Source of the DNA: Alicyclobacillus pomorum DSM 14955
GTDB lineage: Bacteria > Bacillota > Bacilli > Alicyclobacillales > Alicyclobacillaceae
Direction of reading: 5' to 3'
NCBI RefSeq assembly: GCF_000472905.1
Contig: NZ_AXAR01000006.1
Coordinates: forward strand, 62,001-126,000
Length of the DNA: 64,000 bases
Each line of letters opens with the position of its first letter. Within the stretch, counting starts at the first letter, position 1. Positions 16,370-32,261 of this stretch are shown here, one piece after another. A program made the position numbers and the translations under genes. The notes beneath the pieces were generated by a model that did not search any database, had not been told where the DNA came from, and was given only the letters and a program-made list of their open reading frames with translations.

Positions 16370-16798
16370 TCAAGTGGCAAACCCTTTTTGATGCCCAATC
16401 CACTCAGATCCGTCGTCCCAGTTCTCCTTTTTCCATATGGGGACAATCTCCTTCAATCTATCAATGGCGTATGCGCTTGCAGCAAATCCGACATCTCGGT
16501 GCGGAGCGGCCACTACGGAGACGACGGCAATGTCCCCGATATCGAGCCTGCCAATTCGGTGCGTCATGGCAAGCTGCGTGTGCGGCCAGCGTTCTTTGAT
16601 TTCCTTCGCAATGTCAGCCATGGTTTGTACAGCCATGGGTTCGTATGCTTCGTATTCCAAGTAGATGGTTCTCTTCCCCTTCGTGAATTCGCGCACCGTT
16701 CCAATAAAAGGAACAATCGCACCGATGTCCGGCCCACCAACCTTGGCAATCACCTCCGCAGGATTGATGGGATCTCGAACAATTTCGAAATACTTCAT
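16370..16798 (-). CDS. moaE: Molybdopterin synthase catalytic subunit
   Basis: A 142-residue MoaE. With MoaD it puts two sulfurs into precursor Z (cPMP) to make molybdopterin. Seen: GAIVPFIGTVREFTKGK near residue 27, LEYEAYEPMA, MTHRIGRLDIGDIAVVSVVAAPHR and PIWKKENWDDGSEWIGHQKG at the C-terminus with the conserved lysines that form the active site and bind the MoaD tail. GGAGGG lies 6 bases upstream. It directly follows moaD. Confidence 0.95.
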   Translation of the reverse strand: MKYFEIVRDPINPAEVIAKVGGPDIGAIVPFIGTVREFTKGKRTIYLEYEAYEPMAVQTMADIAKEIKERWPHTQLAMTHRIGRLDIGDIAVVSVVAAPHRDVGFAASAYAIDRLKEIVPIWKKENWDDGSEWIGHQKGFAT

Positions 16799-16801
16799 CG
16801 C

Positions 16802-17044
16802 TTACCCTCCACTGACTGGCGGTATAATGGCTATCTCGTCCCCTGGTTCCAATTTTTCTTCTCGCATCACGTACTGGAGATTGCGCGCGACCATGGAACT
16901 GTGCAAAATCTCCTTTGCGTCCGGGTATCTCTGCGTGAGCACATGGATGAGATCCGCAACACTGGCTGCCTCTCTTTCTGGAATGCGGACTTCACTCTGG
17001 CCTACGACCTCAGCCAACTTCGCAAAAACCTTTACAGTAAGCAT
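16802..17044 (-). CDS. moaD: Molybdopterin synthase sulfur carrier subunit
   Basis: An 80-residue ubiquitin-like protein ending in PPVSGG. The terminal Gly-Gly is adenylated and turned into the thiocarboxylate that gives sulfur to MoaE. The beta-grasp start MLTVKVFAKLAEVVG is clear. I chose the ATG at 17044, with GGCGGAGGAGAAT before it, over an in-frame ATG ten codons earlier. Three bases separate it from moaE. Confidence 0.93.
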   Translation of the reverse strand: MLTVKVFAKLAEVVGQSEVRIPEREAASVADLIHVLTQRYPDAKEILHSSMVARNLQYVMREEKLEPGDEIAIIPPVSGG

Positions 17045-17092
17045 ATTCTCCTCCGCCCCCAACAGAATCTCCATGAGAACAGATGTCAGGCG

Positions 17093-18121
17093 CTACCCGC
17101 CCATTTGAAACATCTCGAGTTTGGTTCTGTGCAATCCGGACGTGTTGCTCAGGCGGATTTCAGAATAACGGTCTTTCCTTCTATTCCACACGTTGACAAT
17201 AGCTTCTTTGATTTCCATATCACTTGCACCTTGACGAAGCATCGTCCGCAAATCAGTCCCGTTCGCGGAAAACAAACAGGTATAGAGTGAACCTTCCGCA
17301 GAGAGTCGTGCACGCGTGCAGGTTGAACAGAACGCCTGTGTCACCGACGAAATGAAACCGATTTCATCGTTAGATCCCTTGTATCGGTATCGGGCGGCCA
17401 CTTCCCCAAAATAGTTGGGACTGAGCGGTTCTAGAGGCATTTCTGCGTGAATCAGCTCCACGATGGTTTTACTAGGTACCACGTGATCCAGCCTCCACCC
17501 GTTGCTGTTCCCAACATCCAGGTATTCAATAAATCGAAGAATGTGGCCCTTATCACGAAAATAACGCGCCATCGGTAAAATATCCTGGTCGTTGACCCCC
17601 TTTTGGACCACCATGTTGACTTTTACTTGTAAACCAACATGAGCAGCTTCCTCAATTCCCTCCAATACATGCTTCACCTGAAATCCTCGCCCGTTGATTT
17701 TCCCGAAGCTCTCGTCATCCAGACTGTCAAGACTGACATTGATCCTTTGCAAACCTGCATCTCGTAACGCTTCAGCATGTTTGGCAAGCAGTGACCCATT
17801 GGTAGTAAGAGAGAGGTCTCGGACGCCCTCAATTTGGGCAATACTCCGAATGAGCTCAGGGAGGTTTCTCCGCAACAGCGGCTCTCCGCCGGTAATTCGA
17901 ATTTTTTCAACGCCTAAATCCACAAAAATTTGGGCCAATCGAGTGATTTCCTCAAAACTCAGTAGTTGATCCCTATCAAGAAACTGAAAATTGGGTCCAA
18001 AAAGTTCTTCAGGCATACAGTAGCGGCAGCGAAAGTTACATCTATCTGTAACGGAAATCCGCAAGTCACGTAACGGACGGCTTAAACCATCAAGCAATTT
18101 TGTACGTTCGTTCCCTGCCAT
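17093..18121 (-). CDS. moaA: GTP 3',8-cyclase (radical SAM)
   Basis: A 342-residue MoaA that starts molybdenum cofactor synthesis by making 3',8-cyclo-H2GTP from GTP. The N-terminal radical SAM cluster is C28-x3-C32-x2-C35 ([11 protein letters not shown]). The GGEPLLR motif follows. The second cluster motif is [19 protein letters not shown] near residues 263-281. The protein ends in MGG, the Gly-Gly tail needed by this family. It lies between mocA and moaD. moaC, whose product finishes cPMP, is not in the window. Confidence 0.95.
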
Positions 18122-18136
18122 GATGCATCACCCTAC

Positions 18137-18748
18137 CTATTCGGCTTCAAACTGCTGTTCCACTTTTCTGAAGTCTTCAGGCGTGTCGATATCAACGCCC
18201 CAAAGCGCTTCTTCAAATGCGATGAATTTGGCGCAGTTCTTGTGACGCTGGATAATGGACCTTCCTCCTTCGTCACCCTCTATTTCCTGGAACTCATGAT
18301 AGTATTCCGCATCAAATAGGATAGGATGGCCGGGAGCACCTGCGTATACAGGTCGTACGATGCGAATTCCGTTTGAACGATGAGAATGATAGGTGTCCAC
18401 TATCGTGTCTACCACAAAGTTTGGTACACATGGCTGATCCCCCAAGAATATCAGGACCGCTTCGGTTCGCCCAGTGACAGCCTGAATTCCCATCTTTATA
18501 GAGGAAGCCATACCGGTTCTATAATCTGCGTTTCTTCGAATTTCAACATCGGGGATGCCTTGGAGATGAGTTTCCAGCTGATGGATATGTTCTCCCCCGA
18601 CGACAACGATGGGTTTCAAATGAGTAGACACGGCCGCATCAACCGAGTAGCGAAAGATAGGTTTGTTTTTTAAATTCAATAAAAGCTTCGGTTTCCCCAT
18701 CCGTTTCGACATACCGGCTGCCAGGATGATTGCTCCGATATCCGACAT
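18137..18748 (-). CDS. mocA: Molybdenum cofactor cytidylyltransferase (MocA-like)
   Basis: A 203-residue NTP transferase. GAIILAAGMSKRMGKPKLLL (residues 5-24) is the nucleotide-binding loop, LIFLGDQP the metal-binding segment and GHPILFD the C-terminal motif. MocA adds CMP to molybdopterin for xanthine dehydrogenase-family enzymes; MobA would use GTP for a different enzyme family. The CO dehydrogenase operon nearby uses the cytosine dinucleotide form, so MocA is the better call. It is the first gene of the moa operon. Confidence 0.85.
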   Translation of the reverse strand: MSDIGAIILAAGMSKRMGKPKLLLNLKNKPIFRYSVDAAVSTHLKPIVVVGGEHIHQLETHLQGIPDVEIRRNADYRTGMASSIKMGIQAVTGRTEAVLIFLGDQPCVPNFVVDTIVDTYHSHRSNGIRIVRPVYAGAPGHPILFDAEYYHEFQEIEGDEGGRSIIQRHKNCAKFIAFEEALWGVDIDTPEDFRKVEQQFEAE

Positions 18749-19387: not shown

Positions 19388-19648
19388 GGATAATGACCAC
19401 CTTTCCGGTTATGATGCGTCCAGCGCAAGATTTTGCTAGGAAAATCGATGAAGTGTATTGCGTCTCGGTATCCGTACCACGTCACGGAACGGTCAGGTAT
19501 GAATGAACACCCATTTGGGTCTATAACATGACTGTATTTTCATTATACATTATATATATAAACATTTATCAAGATTTATATAAAACGGAATATAATCCAA
19601 CTTGAGCGGTTGAACCCACATCCAGTCAAACCAAGGAGATGACAAACC

Positions 19649-20698
19649 GTGTCTAGGATTAGTGAAGCACGTGAAGTGTTTACCCGGATTGAACAGGCCT
19701 GGTCAGATGGTGAACGCACGGCTCTGCTCACAATTACCCAAGTAGAGGGCTCCGCGTACCGCCTTCCCGGAGCCAAAATGATGATGACAGAAACAGGAAA
19801 AATGCTCGGTACACTGAGCGGCGGTTGCCTGGAATCCGACCTGTACGGATGGGCGGAAAAGGCAATGCAAGAAGGCGAACCCCGTATCGTGAATTACGAT
19901 CTCAGTGAAAACGAGTTGTGGTCCCTCGGAATTGGCTGCAAAGGAATCCTGGAAGTTGCCATTTTCCCCATTCGTCCCGAAGACCGATTTTGGCAATCTG
20001 TACGGGAGGCCGTCGCCCAAGACCGTGCCGTCTCGTTGGTTATCGAATTGCCTACCGGTGCTCGTGCCGTCTTCGACGGGACAAGCCCGATTTCCGGTGA
20101 GATTGACAATCTGCCAGATGCCGTCGTACAGCGTTTGACCAGCCGTGTCCGGAGTCGTACGAGGGCGGAAGTCGCCGTGGTTGATGGACGCCGCTTTTAC
20201 ATCGACACCATGCGCCCAAGTGAACGGCTGATCCTCTGCGGTGCAGGCCACGACGCCGTACCCGTGGCGGCACTCGCCGCCAAGTGCGGATTTCGGGTCA
20301 CTGTCCTGGATCCCCGCAAGGAGTTCAACGGACCCAACCGCTTTCCTACCACAGAACACCTGGTCGTCGAACCAGATCAAGCGGATCCTGCACAACTCAA
20401 GGAAAGCTGGTGGCTCATCATGAACCACCTGCAAGTGCGCGACGAAGCCGCATTACATCTCGCACTGCAAGCCCAGCCCAAGTTTATTGGTGTGCTCGGT
20501 CCTTTGTCGCGAACGCGCGAGATGCTGAACAACATTGGCGCGGACATGGACAGCGGTCCAATTCATGCCCCAGTTGGGCTGGATCTGGGTGCGGAAACCA
20601 TCGACGAAGTCGCGGTTTCCATCGTGTCTGAATTACTCGCAATACGGTCCGCGCGAACGGGTGCGCCGCTCCATCGGCGAGAAAAAATTCACAGCTGA
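19649..20698 (+). CDS. XdhC/CoxI family molybdenum hydroxylase chaperone
   Basis: A 349-residue protein that binds the molybdenum cofactor and helps sulfurate and insert it into xanthine dehydrogenase-family enzymes such as CO dehydrogenase. N-terminal XdhC/CoxI domain: VEGSAYRLPGAKMMM and GTLSGGCLESDL near residues 32-61, plus GIGCKGILEV. C-terminal Rossmann part: RLILCGAGHDAVPVAALAA near 192. The start is a GTG with AAGGAG upstream. It converges on coxE, so it flanks the cox operon but is transcribed on the other strand. It is one of two XdhC proteins here; the other is fused to a YHS domain. Confidence 0.88.
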   Translation: MSRISEAREVFTRIEQAWSDGERTALLTITQVEGSAYRLPGAKMMMTETGKMLGTLSGGCLESDLYGWAEKAMQEGEPRIVNYDLSENELWSLGIGCKGILEVAIFPIRPEDRFWQSVREAVAQDRAVSLVIELPTGARAVFDGTSPISGEIDNLPDAVVQRLTSRVRSRTRAEVAVVDGRRFYIDTMRPSERLILCGAGHDAVPVAALAAKCGFRVTVLDPRKEFNGPNRFPTTEHLVVEPDQADPAQLKESWWLIMNHLQVRDEAALHLALQAQPKFIGVLGPLSRTREMLNNIGADMDSGPIHAPVGLDLGAETIDEVAVSIVSELLAIRSARTGAPLHRREKIHS

Positions 20699-20702
20699 CG
20701 GG

Positions 20703-21836
20703 TCAGGGCGCCGCAGCTCGCAGCGCCCCGCCCAGCACCGCCTTTTTCCATGTTTCTACATCATGAACATCGACAAACGCGTCAATGTAAGGCAACGCCA
20801 TCGACATGCCCACCGCAGTTGGCTCATATCCGGGTTCGCCGAGCAACGGGTTGAGCCAAACCACTCGGCCTACACGAGCAGCCAAGTCGCGCATGGACGT
20901 ATGCATACGCTCCGGATGCCCAGCGTCAAACCCATCCGACACAATGATGACGGACGTATGCCGGTGCAATAGACTCGGATACCGGTGCAACAGCTGGTCC
21001 AACGCACTGCCAATGCGTGTGCCACCCTTCAATCCCGGCAAATCTGCATACGTCAAACCCGTAACCCCTTTGCGGCCAATCAGAGACGTGACGCGCAACA
21101 GGCGCGTTGAAAAGAGGAAGATTTCCGTGCGTGCGCGGGCCCGCGTGAATGACCAGGCGAGTGCTGTGATAAACGGTGCATATGGCTTCATGGATCCTGA
21201 AATATCGATGACCAGGACAACGCGCGGCTTGCCAGGACGGTGTCGACGCATTTTCAGTACAAACGGCTCCCCTGCGCGGCGCATGGCGTACCGCATGGTT
21301 TGGCGGAGGTCGATTTTCCCCCTGCCTCGTGACCGCCATTTGCGGCCTCGCGGTGCATCCATCGTGCGCACCGCCAAGCGAGTCAGATGAACCACGTCCT
21401 TCAAGACCTGTTCGTCTGCCCGCAAAGCGTAACGCTCGCCGTCGTTCGGATGATATCCGGCGAGGAAGCCCTGTACAGACTCCACCGTCTGTCGATCCGC
21501 CTGTTCTCCGGCACCGCTGTCACTCCCACCAACCAAATCATCCGGCTGGAAGCGGCGCTTTTCCTCCAATTGCACGCCCCGACCACAAAAGTATCGCTCA
21601 AACAAACTCGGAAAGATGCCCCACTCCGCCGGTGTGCGCGAATAGATGGACCGAAAGGCACTGCAGACCTCGTCTATGTGGGTCAAGTCCAGTTCAACCA
21701 AGGCGGCAATGGCAGTCAACGTTTCTGGAATCCCGACCTTAAATCCATGTTCTCTCAGCCAAGGCGCAAAGCCGGCCACCTGCCGCACGATGTTCGCCGT
21801 CCAGCGGCCAACCTCCTCACCCGTCAGGCGTTCCAT
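20703..21836 (-). CDS. coxE: VWA domain protein CoxE
   Basis: A 377-residue protein of the CoxE family. The C-terminal half is a von Willebrand A domain with the MIDAS motif DISGS (VLVIDISGSMKPYAPF) and a downstream conserved Asp (IIVSDGFDAG). In Oligotropha, CoxE works with the AAA+ protein CoxD to build the copper-sulfur-molybdenum site, acting in copper insertion. Its start overlaps the coxD stop by 13 bases, so they are coupled. It is the last gene of the cox operon and converges on the plus-strand xdhC. Confidence 0.88.
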   Translation of the reverse strand: MERLTGEEVGRWTANIVRQVAGFAPWLREHGFKVGIPETLTAIAALVELDLTHIDEVCSAFRSIYSRTPAEWGIFPSLFERYFCGRGVQLEEKRRFQPDDLVGGSDSGAGEQADRQTVESVQGFLAGYHPNDGERYALRADEQVLKDVVHLTRLAVRTMDAPRGRKWRSRGRGKIDLRQTMRYAMRRAGEPFVLKMRRHRPGKPRVVLVIDISGSMKPYAPFITALAWSFTRARARTEIFLFSTRLLRVTSLIGRKGVTGLTYADLPGLKGGTRIGSALDQLLHRYPSLLHRHTSVIIVSDGFDAGHPERMHTSMRDLAARVGRVVWLNPLLGEPGYEPTAVGMSMALPYIDAFVDVHDVETWKKAVLGGALRAAAP

Positions 21837-22684
21837 AACACGTCGAGTCCCCTCTCCCGAACGAAGTTCAGGTCTTCCTCTGTCTTCAACAAACATCCAA
21901 GGGTCAGCCGAATGACCGCTTCGTCTAATTCCTGCGTCCCCAACTCGTGCAGCGCCTTTGCAAAATCGATGGACTCTGCCATTCCGGGAGGCTTGAGCAG
22001 CGACAACTTCCGCAGTCGTCGCATGCCACGTGCGATTTGTTTCGCCAGTTCATGCGCAATGTGCGGCACATGCAGGGAGATGATGGCCGCCTCTTGTTCT
22101 GGCGACGGGTAATCGACCCAGGCGTACAGACAGCGGCGCCGCAAGGCGTCCGACAAGTCGCGCGTGCGATTGGACGTCAACATCACAATCGGTGGCTCAA
22201 CAGCGCGAAAGGTTCCTAACTCGGGAATCGTCATTTGGTATTCCGAAAGGAATTCGAGCAGCAACGCCTCGAACTCCTCGTCGGCGCGATCCACTTCATC
22301 AATCAACAGCACAGGCGCTGGCGTTTCTCGTAGCGCACGTAGAAGCGGTCGTTCGATGAGAAACGGCTCACTGTACAGCGACGCCTGATTCACGTCCCCA
22401 TCGGCGAACGCCGTACGTGCCGTCAGCAACTGTTTTGGGTAATCCCAATCGTATAACGCCTGACTTGCATCCAAGCCCTCGTAGCACTGCAAGCGAACGA
22501 GGTTCACCGAACGAACGGTGGCAAGCGCTTTCGCCAGTGCCGTTTTTCCCACACCTGCAGGGCCTTCCAACAGCAGCGGACGGGCCAGCCGCTGTGCCAG
22601 ATGCAGTACAGTAGCCAACCCTTCCTCAACCACGTAGTGAGCACGATGCAGTTCCTTCTGCAATTGGCGCACCTGCTCGTTCAT
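21824..22684 (-). CDS. coxD: MoxR-type AAA+ ATPase CoxD
   Basis: A 286-residue ATPase. Walker A is GPAGVGKTALA (about residue 44), Walker B VLLIDEVDRADEEFE, sensor 1 PIVMLTSNRTRDLSDALRRR. CoxD is the chaperone that, in Oligotropha, unfolds or remodels apo-CO dehydrogenase so that sulfur can be added to molybdenum. It pairs with the VWA protein CoxE directly downstream, a usual MoxR-VWA pairing. The ATG at 22684 has GGAGG 8 bases before it; earlier in-frame starts overlap coxG and lack a good site. Confidence 0.9.
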   Translation of the reverse strand: MNEQVRQLQKELHRAHYVVEEGLATVLHLAQRLARPLLLEGPAGVGKTALAKALATVRSVNLVRLQCYEGLDASQALYDWDYPKQLLTARTAFADGDVNQASLYSEPFLIERPLLRALRETPAPVLLIDEVDRADEEFEALLLEFLSEYQMTIPELGTFRAVEPPIVMLTSNRTRDLSDALRRRCLYAWVDYPSPEQEAAIISLHVPHIAHELAKQIARGMRRLRKLSLLKPPGMAESIDFAKALHELGTQELDEAVIRLTLGCLLKTEEDLNFVRERGLDVLWNA

Positions 22685-22709
22685 CTGAACATCCTCCACT
22701 TCCGTTCGT

Positions 22710-23204
22710 TCAACCTTCATCCGCAGCTGTTCCGTCCGTGGCGCCGACCGCCGCTTCGTCCGGCAAGTTATCCAAGGCATTCTTCAGGTTGGCAAAGACC
22801 TTCTGTGTGATTTTTTGCGCCTCTCTATCTATCAAACGCCCGCCGAGACTTGCGATGGGCCCACTGATCACCGCGTCGCACTTCCATTTCAAAAGGGTTC
22901 CATCCGCAGTGTCGGTGAGTTCCATTGCCGCCTTCATATCAACACCGCTCCCCATTCCACCGCCGCGAATCGACAGGGAGGCCGTCGAGCCCGGTTGAGT
23001 GACGGTTAATTCACTTGTGAGATCGAACTTGCCGCGAATCGGGCCCACGCCGACCTTCACGAGCGTGCGAAAGCGGGTTTCACTCTCCACGTTCAATTGA
23101 ATCAAGTCGGGAATACAGGGCCCCATTTTATTTGGATCAATCACGAAATTCCAAATCTTCTCTCGTGGCTGTTCAATGGTGAATTCTCCTTGATACGTTC
23201 GCAT
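22710..23204 (-). CDS. coxG: CO dehydrogenase subunit G, SRPBCC fold
   Basis: A 164-residue START/SRPBCC protein (YQGEFTIEQPREKIWNFVIDPNKMGPCIPD; later ATLSI-like and DREAQKITQKVFANL). CoxG links CO dehydrogenase to the cell membrane in Oligotropha, and work in mycobacteria reports that it carries quinone to the enzyme. AGAGGAGG lies 7 bases before the ATG at 23204. It sits between the XdhC-YHS gene and coxD. Confidence 0.9.
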   Translation of the reverse strand: MRTYQGEFTIEQPREKIWNFVIDPNKMGPCIPDLIQLNVESETRFRTLVKVGVGPIRGKFDLTSELTVTQPGSTASLSIRGGGMGSGVDMKAAMELTDTADGTLLKWKCDAVISGPIASLGGRLIDREAQKITQKVFANLKNALDNLPDEAAVGATDGTAADEG

Positions 23205-23340
23205 GATTTTGCCTCCTCTGTTGTTCATGCCAAGTCTGACTAGACGCGCGAAGCAGACGACCATCAACGGGCTGGATACCGCCCCTTATGTCCTCGTGCC
23301 AGTACACTTCCACGCACCTACGCCCCCGTGGGGCGCGCCG

Positions 23341-24387
23341 TCAGGCGTGACTATGCAGATACCTTTCCGGTTCTCGTGCGAAGCGGTCCCGGCAGCCACC
23401 ACAGCAAAACCCGTAGGTGGTTCCGTCCAGTTCCAGCCGGTGTGGCGTCTTCGCCAAGTCTACAGTCATGCCACACACCGGATCGACCACCTCTTGATGC
23501 ACTGAGACATTGCTGCAGTGGGTTACTGAAGCCTCAGACACCGAAGTCCAGGCAGCGGACTGTCCCTCCCACAGTGCTTTCGCACCGCGGCGTCTGCGTT
23601 CCACAATTTGCGCCAGCACGCTGAGTGCGATTTCTTGCGGCCCGACGGCGCCGATATCGAATCCTGCAGGCGCCGTGACAAAGTCGATAAAGTCGCTGGA
23701 CGCACCCGCTTCCGCCAAATCGGCGCGCACTCTCGTCCAGCGCTTTGGACTGGTGACGAGGCCAAGATAGCGAAGCGGCAAAGAGGCGACGGCCAGCAGT
23801 CCATCGACATCGTACAAACCCATCGTGGCGACGACGCCATACGCCGGCGTATTCGCATGAAAATGAAGTTCACTGCGCAGTGTCGCGACCGGGCCTTCCG
23901 CACGAGGGGTTGCCGCCTCTTCAAGCGAGATCCGGCGCGGGTTCAGTGAGAATCTGGGCGCGAGTTCTGCCAACGCAAGCGCGATGGGGGAGTTCCCGAC
24001 CACCACCAACAGTGGGTCCACATGTTTCGGTTCCAAGAACAGTTCGACCGTCCCTTCCGATGCGCATGTCATCGGCAGGACCGTCACGCCTTCCGCCACG
24101 TCGGTCGGCGGCTGCGGCGTCACGAGCACGAGCTTGCTCTCGCCCGTGCGGAGGCACTTCTTCGCCTGGTCGATGACCAGATCCCGCGTGCAATGCCCCC
24201 CGACAAACCCTTTCATTTCGCCATCCGCCGTGACAATCGCTTTGTCGCCAACCGTGGCAGAACTTGGGCGCACACGGCGGACGACAGTCACCATGACGTA
24301 CGGTTCCGCCCGTTCATCCAAGTCCCTTGCAGTGTCCAAGAGATTGTCCATCCGTTGGACCCGACGCCCCGAAGGCCGCCGGGTCAT
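23341..24387 (-). CDS. XdhC/CoxF family chaperone fused to a C-terminal YHS metal-binding domain
   Basis: A 348-residue protein in two parts. Residues about 15-290 are an XdhC/CoxI family protein with the N-terminal domain (GDKAIVTADGEMKGFVGGHC) and the Rossmann part (PLLVVVGNSPIALALAELA). The last 45 residues form a YHS/TRASH domain: DPVCGMTVDLAKTPHRLELD then YGFCCGGCRDRF, with cysteines set to bind a metal. It is placed directly after coxL, where CoxF-type factors occur. Oligotropha CoxF helps insert copper, so a metal domain on this protein fits that role; this is inference. The ATG at 24387 is 3 bases past GGAGGA; an internal ATG at 24351 is possible. Confidence 0.85.
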   Translation of the reverse strand: MTRRPSGRRVQRMDNLLDTARDLDERAEPYVMVTVVRRVRPSSATVGDKAIVTADGEMKGFVGGHCTRDLVIDQAKKCLRTGESKLVLVTPQPPTDVAEGVTVLPMTCASEGTVELFLEPKHVDPLLVVVGNSPIALALAELAPRFSLNPRRISLEEAATPRAEGPVATLRSELHFHANTPAYGVVATMGLYDVDGLLAVASLPLRYLGLVTSPKRWTRVRADLAEAGASSDFIDFVTAPAGFDIGAVGPQEIALSVLAQIVERRRRGAKALWEGQSAAWTSVSEASVTHCSNVSVHQEVVDPVCGMTVDLAKTPHRLELDGTTYGFCCGGCRDRFAREPERYLHSHA

Positions 24388-24415: not shown

Positions 24416-26767
24416 TTATTCTGAGATACCGTGCTCCCTCAAGATGCTCCACACTTTCCAAGGGAAAATCGGCATATCGATGTGCTCCACACCAAACGGC
24501 GACAGTGCATCCACAACCGCGTTGACAAACGCCGCGGGAGAACCGACATTCGGCGACTCTCCAACGCCTTTCGCACCGATTGGGTGGTGCGGCGACGGGG
24601 TCACTGTCCGGTCCGTTTCCCAGTGCGGGGTGTCTGCCGACGTGGGAACCAGATAATCCATCCAGTTCGGAGCCAAACAGTTGCCGTCCGCGTCGTATGG
24701 AATGTCTTGCATGAACGCAATCGCAAACCCTTCGGTGAGCCCTCCGTGAACCTGTCCGTCGACAATCATGGGATTGATCACGTTGCCGCAATCATCGACT
24801 GCCAGGAAACGCCTCACCTTGACGGCGCCCGTTCCCTTGTCGATATCCACCACTGCGATGTACGCCCCATGGGGGAAGGTGAGATTCGGTGGATTATAGT
24901 AGTACGTCGCTTCCAAGCCCGGTTCCAGGCCCTCAGGGATGTTTGTGTACGCAGCAAACGCCACGTCCTTCATCGACACAGAGCGACCCGGCAAGCCCTT
25001 TACGGAGAAAGCGATGCCATCCCACGTGACGTCGTCTTCACTGACCTCCAAAAGATGGGCGGCGATTTTGCGCGCCTTCTCACGAATCCTGCGCGCGCAA
25101 AGTGCTGCTGCACCCCCCGCCGTCGGCGTGGAGCGACTGGCGTACGTGCCCAACCCGTAGGGTGCCGTGTCGGTATCGCCTTCTTCAATCAGTACGTCGT
25201 CCGCACTCAGTCCCAGTTCCTCCGCAATGATTTGGGCAAATGTCGTTTCGTGTCCCTGGCCCTGGTGCCGCACACCAAGCCGCGCAATCACCTTTCCAGT
25301 TGGATGGAAGCGAATCTGCGCACTGTCGAACATCTTAATGCCGACAATGTCGAACAGGTGCGCAGGACCTGCGCCGACCACCTCTGTGAAGGTCGAGATG
25401 CCAATGCCCATCAATTCCCCGCGTGCCCGCTTTTCTGCCTGTTCTTTGCGCAGCTCTTCATATCCAATGCGGTCTAGCGCGAGTTTTAGCGTCTTTTCAT
25501 AGTCCCCGCTGTCGTAGACCCATCCGGTGGGAGATTTATATGGGAACTGGTCCTTGCGAATGAAGTTGCGAAGACGCAGCTCGGCGGGATCCATTCCCAG
25601 TCGCTGGGCCAATACGTCCATCACTCGTTCAATCAGGTACGATGCCTCTGTGACACGGAATGAACAGCGATAGGCCACGCCGCCGGGCGCCTTGTTCGTG
25701 TAGACTCCGTCCACCTCGACAAACGCGGCTTTGAAATCGTACGAGCCGGAGACAATGCTGAACAATCCGGCCGGGAACTTGGACGGATCTGCCGCCGCGT
25801 CGAAGGCACCGTGGTCGGCTATCGTCTTGACGCGCAGTGCCAACACTTTTCCGTCCTCACGCGCCGCAATCTCAGCGGTCATATGGTAGTCGCGAGCAAA
25901 GTGGCTGCTGGCAACGTTTTCGGTACGCGTTTCAATCCACTTCACAGGGGTTCCTAATTTCAAGGAGGCGGCAACGGCAATGACGTAACCTGGATATACG
26001 GGAACTTTGTTGCCAAAGCCACCGCCAACATCCGGTGAAATGACTTGAATTTGGTGTTCGGGAAGACCGGACACCATCGCCAGCACCGTCCGGTGGACGT
26101 GGGGCGCCTGCGAAGTGACATACAATGTCAACTTGCTCTTGGCTGGATCGTAATCTGCGACGCATCCACAGGGTTCGAGCGGCGAAGGATGGACGCGTGG
26201 GAACCGCACCTTCTGACTGACGATGACCGGCGCGTCACGGAACAGCGTCTCGGTTTCCTCTCTGTCCCCCGCCTCCCAGTGGAAGATATGGTTGGACTTT
26301 TCCTCTTTATCCTCGCGAAGAACCGGAGCGTCCGGCGCAAGTGCCTTGAAAGGATCCACCACAACCGGTAGAGGTTCGTAATCGACTTCAATCAGTTGCG
26401 CCGCGTCTTCTGCTTGCGCACGCGTCTCCGCGACCACCGCAGCCACTTCCTGGTACTGGAACAAGACCTTGCCCGTGGCCATTACCATCTGTTGGTCCCC
26501 TGCCAGCGTTGGCATCCAGGCGAGGTTCATGCTGGCCAGGTCCTCTCCCGTGAGTACCAACTTGACCCCTGGTGCGGCGAGTGCCGCAGACGTGTCGATA
26601 CTGCGAATGCGGGCGTGCGCGTACGGACTGCGCACGATGCAGAGATAGAGCATATTCGGCAACATGACGTCATCTACGTAACGGCCCTTCCCACGAATCA
26701 GTCGCGGATCCTCTTTACGACCAATCGGTTTGCCCATCGGCCGCATCTCAGTCTGTCGAAGTGCCAT
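24416..26767 (-). CDS. coxL: Aerobic carbon monoxide dehydrogenase large subunit, form I
   Basis: A 783-residue molybdenum-copper subunit that oxidises CO with water to CO2, passing electrons to CoxS and CoxM. The active-site loop is AYRCSFR (bases 25655-25675), where Cys368 would bind copper; AYxCSFR is the accepted signature of form I, true CO dehydrogenases. [14 protein letters not shown] (cofactor binding) and [11 protein letters not shown] (with the catalytic Glu near the C-terminus) are present. I chose ATG 26767, with GGAGGTGG upstream, giving a 20-base overlap with coxS; a start at 26803 is less likely. It needs the cytosine dinucleotide cofactor made by the nearby mocA and moa genes. 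Confidence 0.96.
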
Positions 26768-27263
26768 GGGTTGCCGCCACCTCCAATGTTTCTTGAGTTT
26801 CACCCGACATCTTGCGAGCAGCCAGTTGAACCGCTTTCACGATGTTCACATACCCCGTGCAGCGACAGATATTCCCTGAAAGCGCCTCGCGAATTTCTTC
26901 TTCAGTCGGCGCCGGATTCTCTTGTAACAGCGCATAGGATGCCATCAGCATGCCAGGCGTGCAGTAGCCGCACTGCAGCGCGTGCTCCTCCCAGAATGCG
27001 CTTTGCAATGGGTGCAGTTGCCCGTTCTTCTCCAGCCCTTCAACGGTCAGCACCTCGCGACCGTCCGCCTGCACGGCGAGTACGGTGCACGACTTGACGA
27101 GTTTCCCGTCCAACAGCACGGTGCAAGCACCGCAACTGGTGGTATCACAGCCGATGTGCGTTCCCGTCAGCTTCAGTTGTTCGCGCAGAAAATAGGCCAA
27201 CAACGTACGCGGTTCAACGTCCGCTTCGTACGGGCGTCCGTTGACAGTCACCCGGATGTTCAT
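26748..27263 (-). CDS. coxS: Carbon monoxide dehydrogenase small (2Fe-2S) subunit
   Basis: A 171-residue iron-sulfur subunit. The N-terminal plant-type 2Fe-2S cluster has [16 protein letters not shown] and a later Cys in VKSCTVLA. The C-terminal four-helix cluster has QCGYCTPGM and NICRCTGY. Electrons go from the molybdenum-copper site through both clusters to FAD in CoxM. The end extends about 15 residues beyond typical small subunits ([16 protein letters not shown]). It overlaps coxM by 4 bases and coxL by 20, in the form I order M-S-L. Confidence 0.95.
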
Positions 27264-28144
27264 TCCGCCCCCACCCTTTCTTGCAACTCTTCCGCGATTT
27301 CCAGGAGTGCGCGTTTTGCAAAAACACGTAGAAGATCCCGCTTGTAATCCGCACTACCGCGCAGGTCATCTGCAGGGTCCGCGTCTTCCGGCACCAGCTT
27401 GGATACGGTCGAAATCGTCTCCTCCGTCAGAGGTTGTCCGACGAGCGCCGCCTCCGCCTTCGCAGCTCGCAGTGGAATCGGGCCACACGCGCCAATGCCG
27501 ATGCCAGCCTCGGAAACGCGCCCATCCTTGCCCATCACCACGTGCACAGCCAGCGCGGCAATGGCGAAATCACCGGCCTTGCGTTCGAGTTTCATGTAAC
27601 GAGCGGCCACAGGTCCGTTTGGTGTCGGAACATGCACCGCCACGGCAAGTTCATTTTCCTCTAGAGATGTCGCGAACGTATCCACAAAGAACTCATCAAT
27701 GGGAATGAGTCGGCTTCCCTCCAGCCCCTGTACTTCTACGTCGGCACGAAGAGCAATCATCGCCGCTCCCCAATCCGAGCCCGGATCTGCGTGGACGAGC
27801 GAGCCGCAAATGGTTCCGCGGTTGCGAATCGGCGGATCCGCAATCCAACGAGCGGTGCGGGACAGGAGCGGATATCTGTCGCGCAGTTCCGTCGCATGTT
27901 CCGCGTCGGCATGTCGTGTCAGCGCACCAATCCGTAATTTTCCATTCTCCTCGCGCCAGCCTTTGAGATCATCGATGCCGTTGACATCAATGAGTACGGC
28001 TGGGGCTGCAATGCGAAATTTCATCATCGGCAACAAGCTTTGGCCTCCTGCCAAGATCTTGCTGTCGTAGCCGTACTCAGTCAGAAGGCGGATTGCCTCA
28101 TCGACTGATGTCGGCGCTTCGTACTGAAAGGCATTGGGAAACAA
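27260..28144 (-). CDS. coxM: Carbon monoxide dehydrogenase medium (FAD) subunit
   Basis: A 294-residue FAD-binding subunit. Seen: [14 protein letters not shown] near residue 30 (the AGGQS motif) and [19 protein letters not shown], matching the T-x-GGS motif with Cys in place of the first Gly. It passes electrons to quinone via CoxG or directly. I chose the TTG at 28144, with AAAGGAGG 7 bases upstream, because it gives the usual length near 290 and starts with the family's [10 protein letters not shown]. Upstream ATGs at 28237 and 28204 lack good sites. It is the first gene of a seven-gene cox operon. Confidence 0.93.
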
Positions 28145-28298: not shown

Positions 28299-28342
28299 AT
28301 TATAGAATGTAAAATAGACGTGGAATACACCCAATCGGGTGT
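28299..28342 (-). promoter_or_regulatory. Candidate cox promoter with operator palindrome
   Basis: On the minus strand TATAAT (28304-28299) lies 155 bases before coxM. The hexamer 17 bases upstream is TATTCC, a poor -35 match. The perfect inverted repeat ACACCC-GATT-GGGTGT (28327-28342) lies just upstream and abuts this weak -35. That arrangement fits a promoter needing an activator, and the neighbouring response regulator is the obvious candidate. The palindrome is also 53 bases upstream of the divergent kinase gene. Confidence 0.5.
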
Positions 28343-28395
28343 TTATCAATACCTACTCCTCCCGCAATACCTCTCGAAAGGACGGGAGACGACGT

Positions 28396-29649
28396 ATGCG
28401 TGAACCTACGCCATTCACTGAACTCTTTCAAGTTTTGTCTGACGCACTGGAGCGTCTACAACCTTGCATGGACGAGGGGCTTGAACCGCTGTTGCAGGCT
28501 GTGATTGACTACGCCCGTGAATTGGTACGCGCATCCTTCGCAGGCATCATCATTTTGGAACCACAGGATCCGTCTACCGTCCGGTACTTTAAAGTGTCCG
28601 GATGGCACTCGGAGTTCTCTGAATTTCCGAAAGGGCAAGGGATGTACTTCTTACCCGCGCAAACCGGCCATTCGCTGCGCGTGGATTCGGTTGCCGGACA
28701 TCCACTGTCTGTCGGTATACCCGCAGGCCATCCACCCATCGAAGCGTTTTTGACCATTCCACTGCAACGCCACGGTCAGACGATGGGTTGCATGTTCTTC
28801 GGCAAACCGCCCAAGGCAGGCGCATTCACCAAAAACGACGAAGACATGATGACAGGGTTTGCTTCACTGTGCGCGATGGCCATTTCATGGTGTGAGCAGC
28901 GAGAGAAACACCGCTTCCACATCTTGACGGAAGAACGTCGGCGCATTGCGGAGGAATTACACGATTCGCTGTCCCAAACCTTGTTTGCGGTGGCCCGCGA
29001 GATTGACCGCTTGGAACGAATGGTGACGACAGCCAAGGAAAAAGGTGAGCTACAGGCACGTATTGCGCGGTTACGTGAATTGACGAACCAGTGCCAGTCG
29101 GAGTTGCGTGCCATATTGTTCCGTCTCATAGACGGTGAAACAAAACCCAACCTGTCCGCTTTGACGGACCTCGTACAAGAATTTGAGCGTGTGAGTGGAA
29201 TTTCCACACAACTCATCACACACGGGAACTTGCATCAACTGAGCGAGCCGGTCCAACAGGCCGTCCTCAAGATGGTCGCGGAGTCGTTGACCAATATATA
29301 CCGCCATGCAAACAGCCCCGTCGCCGTCGTCCACGTGCTTGTAGACGCGGACAAAGCCACGGTTGTTGTGCAGGATGCCGGCGTTGGCATTTCGGATGAA
29401 GCGCTCCGCCTCATGAACCATCCAACGGGCCATTTTGGGTTGTACTCGATGGCGCGGTCGGTCGCCATGCTCAATGGTACGCTGGATATTTTTCGGAATG
29501 ATGACGGAGGGACGACAGTGCGGTGTACGTTTCCGATTCACTCACATGCTGAACCAAACGGGAGTCCCCTGAAGCCAGGTTCCGTTCCATTCGGCCCGAG
29601 TTTAGGCCACACTTCAGAAGATGAGACGCAAGGAGGGAACAATCTTTGA
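28396..29649 (+). CDS. GAF-domain histidine kinase, NarX/DevS family (candidate gas sensor)
   Basis: A 417-residue soluble sensor kinase. Residues 25-165 form a GAF domain, about 175-245 a HisKA_3 dimerisation domain (RRRIAEELHDSLSQTLFAVA with phosphorylated His189) and about 270-385 a HATPase domain (NIYRHANSP, VQDAGVGISDEA, GHFGLYSM). No membrane helix is seen. In the GAF part, AGHPPIEAFLTIPL resembles the DosS/DevS segment that holds the haem-binding His149; the matching residue is His112. GGACGGGAG precedes the ATG at 28396. It overlaps the response regulator gene by 4 bases and is divergent from the cox operon. Haem binding is inference. Confidence 0.85.
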   Translation: MREPTPFTELFQVLSDALERLQPCMDEGLEPLLQAVIDYARELVRASFAGIIILEPQDPSTVRYFKVSGWHSEFSEFPKGQGMYFLPAQTGHSLRVDSVAGHPLSVGIPAGHPPIEAFLTIPLQRHGQTMGCMFFGKPPKAGAFTKNDEDMMTGFASLCAMAISWCEQREKHRFHILTEERRRIAEELHDSLSQTLFAVAREIDRLERMVTTAKEKGELQARIARLRELTNQCQSELRAILFRLIDGETKPNLSALTDLVQEFERVSGISTQLITHGNLHQLSEPVQQAVLKMVAESLTNIYRHANSPVAVVHVLVDADKATVVVQDAGVGISDEALRLMNHPTGHFGLYSMARSVAMLNGTLDIFRNDDGGTTVRCTFPIHSHAEPNGSPLKPGSVPFGPSLGHTSEDETQGGNNL

Positions 29650-30278
29650 CGAAGCGCATCGTTGTCGTTGACGACCATGAGCTGGTTCGAATCGGTTTGC
29701 GCGCACTGCTGAGCGACGGCGGGTTGGAGCTGGTGGGCGAGGCAAGCAGTGGATCCGAAGGACACGGACTCATTCAATCCCTGCAACCGGATCTCGCACT
29801 CATTGACGTGCGTCTACCAGACATGAGCGGTATCCAGTTGTGCAAGTCGGTGCGAGAAACCAACACGTCAACCCGCCTCGCCATCCTCACCTCGGCGATG
29901 GACAAACATGTCATTTACGCTTGTCTCCAGACTGGGGTTCAGGGCTATCTACTGAAGGATATGCCCGGTGAAGAGTTGTTGCGGTCCATATGCCATATTT
30001 TAGACGGAAAATCCGTCCTCGACCCGAAAGTGACCGAATACGCCCTACACTGGATTGAATCCCGTAAGGAAGGTGAACCACACAAGGATGTTCTCGACTT
30101 ACGGGACTTAGAGATCCTCCGCCTCATGGCACAAGGGCGGACCAATCAAGAAATCGGCAAGCACATGTACCTGTCCGAAAATACGGTGAAATCGATTGTC
30201 AATGAAATCTATCGTCGCCTTGGCGTCAGAAGCCGCGTGGAAGCCGTGATGGAGGCACACCAACGGGGGCTTCTATGA
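29646..30278 (+). CDS. Response regulator, NarL/DevR family
   Basis: A 210-residue DNA-binding regulator. The receiver has acidic residues Asp9-Asp10, phosphoacceptor Asp54 (LALIDVRLPDMSG) and a Lys in LLKDMPGEEL. The C-terminal LuxR-type HTH is RDLEILRLMAQGRTNQEIGKHMYLSENTVKS, written here only as a family marker with the core GRTNQEIG. The TTG start has AGGAGG 9 bases upstream and overlaps the kinase stop. It likely controls the divergent cox operon, its own operon or modAB; this is inference from position. Confidence 0.9.
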   Translation: MTKRIVVVDDHELVRIGLRALLSDGGLELVGEASSGSEGHGLIQSLQPDLALIDVRLPDMSGIQLCKSVRETNTSTRLAILTSAMDKHVIYACLQTGVQGYLLKDMPGEELLRSICHILDGKSVLDPKVTEYALHWIESRKEGEPHKDVLDLRDLEILRLMAQGRTNQEIGKHMYLSENTVKSIVNEIYRRLGVRSRVEAVMEAHQRGLL

Positions 30279-30345: not shown

Positions 30346-30410
30346 CGATGTGTGTGTTATATAACGATTGTACGTATTCTATAGGTGTTTGTATACAGAA
30401 AGTTGTATAC
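30346..30410 (+). promoter_or_regulatory. modA upstream region with ModE-like half-site and direct repeats
   Basis: ATATAACGAT (30359-30368 region, within CGATGTGTGTGTTATATAACG at 30346-30366) matches one half of the E. coli ModE operator well; the other half is poor. TTGTATAC occurs twice with a 14-base period (30389-30396 and 30403-30410). Either could be an operator of the molybdate uptake genes. No modE gene is in the window. Confidence 0.35.
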
Positions 30411-30462
30411 TAGATTCGTTCAATTTCAATAAGTTCGTCGAAATTACGGGGGTATATGTCGC

Positions 30463-31491
30463 ATGACGTCTAAACGAACGAGCAGGTACATTGTATGGGG
30501 ATTCGCGTGCATGACGGCTCTGATGAGCGTGGGGTGTGGTCAGGGCCCCGCTCCATCTTCTGCCACGCCCACCGGGCACGCCCCGCTGTCCGTCCTGTAC
30601 GCGGGTTCCATGACAAAAGTGATGGAAGGCACCATCGGACCCGCCTACCGGAGGAGCGCAGGCGTGGAACTGGCCGGGGAAAGCGGCGGATCGTCAGCAC
30701 TTGCACAAATGATAGCATCCGGTATCAAACAGCCGGACGTGTTCATCAGTGCAGATCCGTTGGTGAATGACAACGTCCTACTCGGCCCAAGCCATCACAA
30801 CATGGAAGACTGGTACGCGACGCTGGCGAGCGATGAAATGGTTATCGTATACAGCCCGAAGAGTCGATTCGGCGCTATGTTGAAGGAAGCTGCAGACACC
30901 GGGGACTGGCTTAATGTACTGGAGAAACCCGGATTCTTGTTGGGACGAACGGATCCCAAGCTGGATCCGAAAGGCACCCGCGCCCTCCTCGTGATGGAGC
31001 TGGCCGCTCGGTACTACCATCAACCAGACCTGGTGTACCGAATTCTGGGTTCTACCGAAAATCCGAAGCAGGTCTTTCCCGAGGAAACCCTGTTGTCTCG
31101 GCTGACCACGGGACAATTGGACGCCGCTTTCGCATACCGGCACGAAGCGGTGGAATGGGGGCTTCCGTACATTGCGTTACCCAAACAGATCAACTTGGGA
31201 GATCCCAGCTACGCCAAAACCTATGCAACGGTGTCCGCTCCAGGCGCCGGGGGTAAACAACAGCACGGAGCCCCCATTGTGTTCACCATTTCCGTGCCAA
31301 ACACGGTCAAGCATCAAGCGGAAGCGACGGCCTTCGTGGAGTATATGCTGAGTGGCGCAGGCCACCGACAACTCTTGAAGGACGGCTTCGGTGCTGTGGA
31401 CATCACCCTGCTCGGTGACTTGTCCAAGGTGCCAAAGCCGATTCAAACCGTGGCGGCTGCGCATGCATCCTCTGGAGGTGGACAGCACTGA
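30463..31491 (+). CDS. modA: Molybdate/tungstate ABC transporter substrate-binding lipoprotein
   Basis: A 342-residue exported protein with a lipoprotein-type signal peptide; the candidate lipid-modified Cys is Cys25 in LMSVGCGQG. The mature part, LSVLYAGSMTKVMEGTIGPAYRR and ESGGSSALAQMIASG, matches the ModA/WtpA type that binds molybdate or tungstate oxyanions. It is followed directly by a permease gene with a CTGA overlap, and lies beside the CO dehydrogenase operon, which needs molybdenum. Sulfate or thiosulfate binding is less likely. Confidence 0.85.
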   Translation: MTSKRTSRYIVWGFACMTALMSVGCGQGPAPSSATPTGHAPLSVLYAGSMTKVMEGTIGPAYRRSAGVELAGESGGSSALAQMIASGIKQPDVFISADPLVNDNVLLGPSHHNMEDWYATLASDEMVIVYSPKSRFGAMLKEAADTGDWLNVLEKPGFLLGRTDPKLDPKGTRALLVMELAARYYHQPDLVYRILGSTENPKQVFPEETLLSRLTTGQLDAAFAYRHEAVEWGLPYIALPKQINLGDPSYAKTYATVSAPGAGGKQQHGAPIVFTISVPNTVKHQAEATAFVEYMLSGAGHRQLLKDGFGAVDITLLGDLSKVPKPIQTVAAAHASSGGGQH

Positions 31492-32261
31492 AGCGAGTCG
31501 TCCCGTCAGTGCTGATGGTCGCTGCACTTGTCCCTTTTCTCTTCATTTTGGCGCCCATCATTCACCTGGTTTCCACCGCCAATCTGTCTGACGTCTGGAC
31601 AGTGCTGCACGACGACACGTTTCTCTTGTCGCTAGAGACTTCCATGGTGGCCGCTCTGTTGACAACGGCCTGCGCCATCGTCTTCGGGCTCCCCGCTGCG
31701 TTTTTGCTGTCCATCTGGCAATTTCGGGGGCGGCGTTGGGTAGAAGCGGTACTGCTCTTGCCGCTCGTGATGCCGCCCCTCGTGGGCGGCACGGCCGAAA
31801 TCAGTGTGTACGGGCCGAACGCATGGCTTGGCGCATGGTTTGCCGGTCACGGTGCACCGCTCACCGATAGCCTGATTGGGGTCGTTCTGGCCCAAGCGTT
31901 TGTCACCAGCCCGTTCCTCATTCTTGCAGCGCGCGCAGGCTTCGATGAAGTGCCGCGAGACCTGTTGGAGGCGACTCGACTGGCTGGCGGTGGTCTGTGG
32001 GCACAGTTTTGGTTCGTCTACCTTCCGTTATCGCGGCAGGCCATTGGTGCAGGCGTGTTGCTCACATTCGCGAGAAGCATCGGTGAGTTTGGCGCCACGC
32101 TCATCATGGCCTACCATCCGTACACGGTACCGGTAGACATTTGGACGGCGTTTACGAGCGGTGGTCTGAATGCCATCATTCCCATGGCGGTCGTGCTGTT
32201 GTTCGTTTCCATCCTGATTGTGGCCCTCACATCGTGGATCCCGAGATCTTACTCGAGATAG
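31488..32261 (+). CDS. modB: Molybdate/tungstate ABC transporter permease
   Basis: About 257 residues with six hydrophobic segments. The cytoplasmic EAA loop is EATRLAGGGLWAQFWFVYLP near residue 160, matching ModB/WtpB and CysT permeases, which couple to the ATPase. No ATP-binding gene (modC) follows. I chose a CTG at 31488, overlapping the modA stop (CTGA), because GGAGGTGG lies 6 bases before it and it adds a basic N-terminus (KRVVPSV). The next in-frame GTG (31509) and ATG (31515) lack a binding site and may be the true starts by coupling. Confidence 0.85.
   Translation: MKRVVPSVLMVAALVPFLFILAPIIHLVSTANLSDVWTVLHDDTFLLSLETSMVAALLTTACAIVFGLPAAFLLSIWQFRGRRWVEAVLLLPLVMPPLVGGTAEISVYGPNAWLGAWFAGHGAPLTDSLIGVVLAQAFVTSPFLILAARAGFDEVPRDLLEATRLAGGGLWAQFWFVYLPLSRQAIGAGVLLTFARSIGEFGATLIMAYHPYTVPVDIWTAFTSGGLNAIIPMAVVLLFVSILIVALTSWIPRSYSR

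Follow-up and report, generated by a model that had tools for sequence, protein, structure and literature searches.

Results

A sensor kinase and response regulator beside the cox operon

Next to the genes for aerobic carbon monoxide (CO) oxidation in Alicyclobacillus pomorum DSM 14955 lies a two-component system whose best relatives of known structure are the mycobacterial haem sensors DosS and DosT. We analysed it within a stretch of 64,000 nucleotides (contig NZ_AXAR01000006.1, positions 62,001 to 126,000 of the forward strand), here called the window. The sensor kinase (417 residues; 28396..29649, plus strand) consists of the Pfam domains GAF_2, HisKA_3 and HATPase_c, and DosS/DosT lead its matches in the PDB by sequence as well as by fold. 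The response regulator that follows it (210 residues; 29646..30278, plus strand) is of the NarL/FixJ, or DevR, type, and its start overlaps the kinase stop by 4 nt. The two genes point away from the operon of a form I CO dehydrogenase, whose coxM lies on their side. An earlier, sequence-only reading had proposed a haem-based sensor in this setting, and its account of the genes holds: they are divergent from cox, and the partner of the kinase is a DevR-like regulator with Asp54 (Response_reg and GerE domains). As that reading had also stated, the kinase has no membrane helix in a hydropathy scan, the highest mean over 19 residues being 1.35; it is a soluble protein.

The combination of a HisKA_3–HATPase_c core with a LuxR-type partner is that of the DosS/DosT class. 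The kinase has a single GAF domain (residues 29-163 by Pfam), whereas DosS and DosT have two in tandem. The segment AGHPPIEAFLTIPL is confirmed in this domain, and the alignment with DosS runs without gaps from the proximal histidine to the residue at +22, so that His112 (codon 28729..28731, plus strand) corresponds to DosS His149 and Phe134 (codon 28795..28797, plus strand) to Tyr171. The histidine thus matches as had been read; the phenylalanine is a systematic difference from DosS. His112 is the predicted proximal haem ligand, and His189 of the HisKA_3 H-box (codon 28960..28962, plus strand), invariant among orthologues, is the predicted phospho-acceptor. The acidic pocket, Asp54 and Lys104 of the regulator are retained in relatives.

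Co-occurrence of the pair with CO dehydrogenase genes

In a first survey of 61 genomes (that of A. pomorum and its relatives), eight encode the kinase (A. pomorum itself and seven with orthologues of 50-73% identity), and in all eight it neighbours a close form I coxL; in a ninth genome with coxL the contig stops inside coxM. One Alicyclobacillaceae metagenome-assembled genome and two Hydrogenibacillus add further cases, so that 11 of the 12 Alicyclobacillaceae/Hydrogenibacillus clusters of form I cox have the pair alongside; the contig of the other one ends first. The systematic survey covered Bacillota, and a second class of this phylum contributed 26 coxL genes of form I, at 73-76% identity. 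In 22 of these clusters the pair is nearby, usually divergent from coxM, with four cases past the opposite cluster end; the remaining four clusters are a decayed cluster with a partial regulator, a contig that is too short, and the clusters of genomes G114 and G153, taken up below. A single-sequence search of the genome contig collection gave no match. A search of plasmids returned one distant cox neighbour, a GAF kinase with regulator close to form I cox in Thermomicrobium roseum (L116 1799-3684), a member of another phylum. Could the pair be an ordinary two-component system without a role in cox, placed there by chance? GAF-HisKA_3 kinases are indeed common, but the pair adjoins 33 form I clusters across two classes, and this, together with a matching clade and operator, already contradicts the explanation, to which we give almost no credence.

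Likeness to DosS and DosT

The nearest sequences to the GAF domain are those of the Mycobacterium sensors of the DosS/DosT-DosR/DevR system, at 27-28% identity. In a search of all PDB sequences the top five matches were GAF-A domains of DevS/DosS and DosT (E 2.8e-14 to 5e-11), and a five-sequence profile placed DosS/DosT GAF-A at E 5e-24, with the next family at 5e-9. A structure model (predicted local distance difference test, 87.5) has the same GAF fold: the first 17 Foldseek matches are all DosS/DosT GAF-A, with E from 4e-11 to 3.5e-9. In the model, His112 belongs to the loop preceding strand 117-125, and Phe134 lies within strand 128-137. Proximal histidine, HisKA_3 kinase, NarL/FixJ-type partner and solubility of the kinase are likewise shared with DosS/DosT, while the presumed target differs, being a CO dehydrogenase here and the dormancy regulon in Mycobacterium.

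A branch with phenylalanine and a short distal loop

Profile alignment separates the cox-linked kinases from their DosS-type relatives. His112 and Phe134 are present in all 32 intact cox-linked GAF domains, and in each the positions of Trp70 and Phe77 are separated by 7-8 residues; DosS, DosT and 49 rows from kinases unlinked to CO genes (46 distinct genes) have histidine, tyrosine and a separation of 12 residues. Phe at +22 is the informative residue and the point of departure from DosS, whose distal tyrosine is missing from every intact cox-linked member. The distal loop of these members is 4-5 residues shorter than that of DosS, by 4 residues in the A. pomorum kinase, which also has an Ile-type residue at the position of DosS Glu87. 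The missing stretch corresponds to about DosT 104-107 and adjoins reported haem contacts that include Arg106 (PMC4082495).

The unlinked Bacillota kinases share the GAF-HisKA_3 architecture and the same histidine, and they differ in Tyr at +22, the long distal loop and the absence of adjoining CO dehydrogenase genes. The sequence-only reading had argued for haem from a histidine with an aromatic residue at +22. Both residues are present, yet with histidine and tyrosine in the 49 unlinked rows the motif is a family-wide signature, insufficient alone, and we discarded it as proof of haem. His102 and Cys132, invariant in close orthologues, were dismissed as alternative ligands because they are lost in members from the other Bacillota class; His112, unlike these two, is conserved in cox-linked GAF domains down to about 31% identity.

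Just one kinase with phenylalanine and a short loop was found outside the cox set. In genome G494 (L203, contig C74, 7083-12081) the genes for this kinase and its regulator immediately precede those for a ferredoxin and an anaerobic nickel (Ni)-CO dehydrogenase (TIGR01702, 622 bits against a cut-off of 478); besides G494, none of about 50 cooS matches in the second Bacillota class is near a match from the GAF search of that class. The cox- and cooS-linked kinases form one clade of 33 (Shimodaira–Hasegawa-like approximate likelihood ratio test, SH-aLRT, 97), and the tyrosine type groups apart with DosS/DosT (SH-aLRT 99), in a quick tree that was made without bootstrap and with the trait columns kept in the alignment. 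As the pair is linked to two CO dehydrogenases that are unrelated to each other, CO is the likeliest signal.

A haem-binding GAF domain could instead respond physiologically to O2 or redox state and so restrict cox to suitable respiratory conditions. DosS and DosT report O2/redox in mycobacteria, the Y171F variant of DosS has a higher affinity for O2 than for CO (PMC4082495), and CO oxidation in this bacterium is aerobic. Against such a signal stands the anaerobic Ni-CO dehydrogenase that the same clade adjoins in G494. Unlinked tyrosine-type DosS kinases are, moreover, common in genomes of the same class, from which the CO-linked branch seems to be functionally different. We consider O2 or redox sensing unlikely.

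A conserved operator at the coxM promoter

The gap between coxM and the kinase holds a candidate operator of 29 bp, GGTATTGATAAACACCCGATTGGGTGTAT (28325..28353, minus strand), with the core palindrome ACACCC-N4-GGGTGT at 28327-28342. Palindrome and flanks are kept in seven relatives, in one of them with a mismatch. TATAAT at 28299..28304 (minus strand), 22 bp from the palindrome, is the predicted -10 element of coxM, positioned by promoter alignment; TATAAT or TACAAT occurs 22-24 bp past the palindrome in 10 of 11 aligned promoters, and the -35 position, directly after the palindrome, shows no consensus. Relative to the predicted coxM start the palindrome would have its centre at about -42, adjoining a promoter that lacks a good -35 element, as expected for an activator site. 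A scan of the gap with the sigma-70 consensus found no promoter, a result that fits a promoter lacking -35 and proves nothing.

Genome-wide pattern search with the extended motif, allowing up to 3 mismatches, found only two sites in 3.4 Mb: the one described and a second with 3 mismatches (19496..19524, plus strand), 125 bp before an xdhC/coxI-like gene (19649..20698, plus strand; Pfam assignment) that is the predicted second target. Another exact ACACCC-N4-GGGTGT in the genome (contig C1) was rejected as a terminator-like hairpin with a GAAA loop and a T-run. In Hydrogenibacillus schlegelii the palindrome, at up to 1 mismatch, likewise has just two genomic occurrences, one ahead of coxM and one ahead of the same xdhC; the operator stays with the cox genes there although the pair occupies another place in the cluster. 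Most Alicyclobacillaceae have a weak xdhC site, matching 18-24 of 30 positions where shuffles reach up to 19, at a similar location.

In the second Bacillota class the coxM/kinase gap carries lineage-specific palindromes, of type ACC-N6-GGT in 8 of 10 loci against 0.32 expected, and ATCC-N4-GGAT in 6 of 7 against 0.08, counts that overstate the evidence because related genomes are not independent. The recognition helix of the regulator varies in step with the palindromes (K-x-I/L, K-x-H, K-x-R). This covariation is suggestive at most of a match between regulator and site, since the groups also separate lineages.

The cox cluster and its surroundings

Form I assignment of the CO dehydrogenase follows from the motif AYRCSFR (AYxCSFR in the class), a TIGR02416 score of 1272 bits against a cut-off of 991, and the gene order coxM-S-L. 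On the minus strand the cluster reads coxM (27260..28144; FAD_binding_5 and CO_deh_flav_C), with a likely TTG start at 28144 behind AAAGGAGG as read from the sequence; coxS, the [2Fe-2S] subunit (26748..27263; Pfam); coxL, the large subunit (24416..26803); a gene for an XdhC/CoxI family protein with a C-terminal YHS domain (23341..24387; Pfam); coxG (22710..23267; Pfam COXG); coxD, an AAA ATPase (21824..22780; AAA_5); and coxE, a VWA domain protein (20703..21896; VWA_CoxE). The XdhC/CoxI-YHS fusion is kept in related cox clusters and may handle metal for the molybdenum-copper (Mo-Cu) site. The xdhC/coxI-like gene on the plus strand is convergent with coxE and, with the second operator copy upstream, spans 19496-20698. 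Next to the cluster, at 16370-18748, are molybdenum cofactor genes (MoaE-like, MoaA, MobA-like). Downstream of the regulator, 30380-32261 encodes a WtpA/ModA-like binding protein and a permease, as if for molybdate supply, and TATACA-N6-TGTATA is found at about 30390-30410, upstream of the WtpA/ModA-like gene.

Discussion

Taken together, the conserved neighbourhood, the clade, the operator and the fold give good support to control of cox by a dedicated DosS-like two-component system. That the kinase binds haem and senses CO we infer from homology, from the conservation of His112 and from the link to CO dehydrogenases. The system probably works like DosS, with the departures of a single GAF domain and a phenylalanine at the distal position. 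We think it fairly probable that the pair serves CO oxidation by the complete route from haem to operator, as follows. A b-type haem in the GAF domain of the cytosolic kinase would be ligated by His112, and Phe134 and the shortened loop would close the distal pocket. Exchange of the haem ligand, most likely for CO, would alter autophosphorylation at His189, and the phosphate would pass from there to Asp54 of the regulator. Dimers of the phosphorylated regulator would then bind ACACCC-N4-GGGTGT, abutting the place of the missing -35 element with the centre near -42, and would activate coxMSL together with the maturation genes, the second site serving xdhC.

Several observations weigh against this interpretation. 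In DosS, the Y171F exchange renders every liganded state inactive without favouring CO over O2 (PMC4082495); phenylalanine alone is therefore no predictor of a CO-activated kinase, and the pocket must differ beyond Phe134, the shortened loop being the obvious candidate. Form I clusters without the pair are present in the stretches read of G153 (L107) and G114 (L111), and neither genome has a GAF match at E 1e-14. His112 also occurs in unlinked kinases of unknown ligand, and the cox-linked kinase of G562 (L109 3201-4505) has lost both histidine and phenylalanine; it may represent a natural control or a decayed sensor. Superposition on DosS GAF-A, to which the sequence-only reading had looked for confirmation, separates the two measures of fold: Foldseek ranks DosS/DosT first, but by VIA-align the DosS match (Z 18.7, 2.2 Å, 142 residues) is on a par with those to non-haem GAF domains, so the fold gives no proof of function.

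Alternatively, the GAF domain may hold no haem. His112 would then have a structural role or belong to a site for another ligand, and the signal would be a metabolite or cofactor tied to CO oxidation. In favour of this, the model matches non-haem GAF domains equally well by Z, GAF domains bind many ligands, the histidine is family-wide, and the cox-adjacent kinase of T. roseum, which falls outside the clade, keeps HPP and has Gly at +22. The closest solved relatives, however, are all haem proteins, and more distant GAF domains are without the histidine, which is hence not required by the fold. A haem-free sensor appears quite improbable to us.

Those CO-specific regulators of CO dehydrogenase genes that the literature consulted names as proven, CooA, RcoM and CoxC, are one-component proteins of the CRP/FNR or LytTR type (PMC11347149, PMC11942997). 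The A. pomorum system would share with them the response to CO and the target; it differs in dividing sensing and DNA binding between two genes, both from other families. CutR of Mycobacterium sp. JC1 likewise regulates an aerobic CO dehydrogenase (PMC12609908) and is LysR-type without a kinase. NreB/NreA/NreC and NarX/NarL resemble the pair in the NarL-family output and the HisKA_3 kinase, whereas matches to NarQ/NarX are confined to the kinase part, far under cut-off, and the GAF domain of NreA matches weakly (E 2e-5). Among the neighbours of Ni-CO dehydrogenases, one survey mentions a two-component system of a different regulator class (COG0642/COG0745; PMC6344411). Literature searches, carried out largely outside subscription journals, found neither a GAF two-component system for cox nor a described regulator of aerobic CO oxidation in Bacillota. 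On balance, we incline to the view that the pair belongs to an apparently undescribed branch of DosS-type haem-GAF sensors, with a short, Phe-lined pocket tuned to CO, that is co-inherited in Bacillota with Mo-Cu and once with Ni CO dehydrogenases and acts through a palindromic operator at cox promoters.

If correct, this would add a sensor architecture for CO. The tyrosine and phenylalanine clades would offer a natural comparison for the discrimination of gases by haem-GAF sensors, and the compact regulon and operator predicted here would be directly testable.
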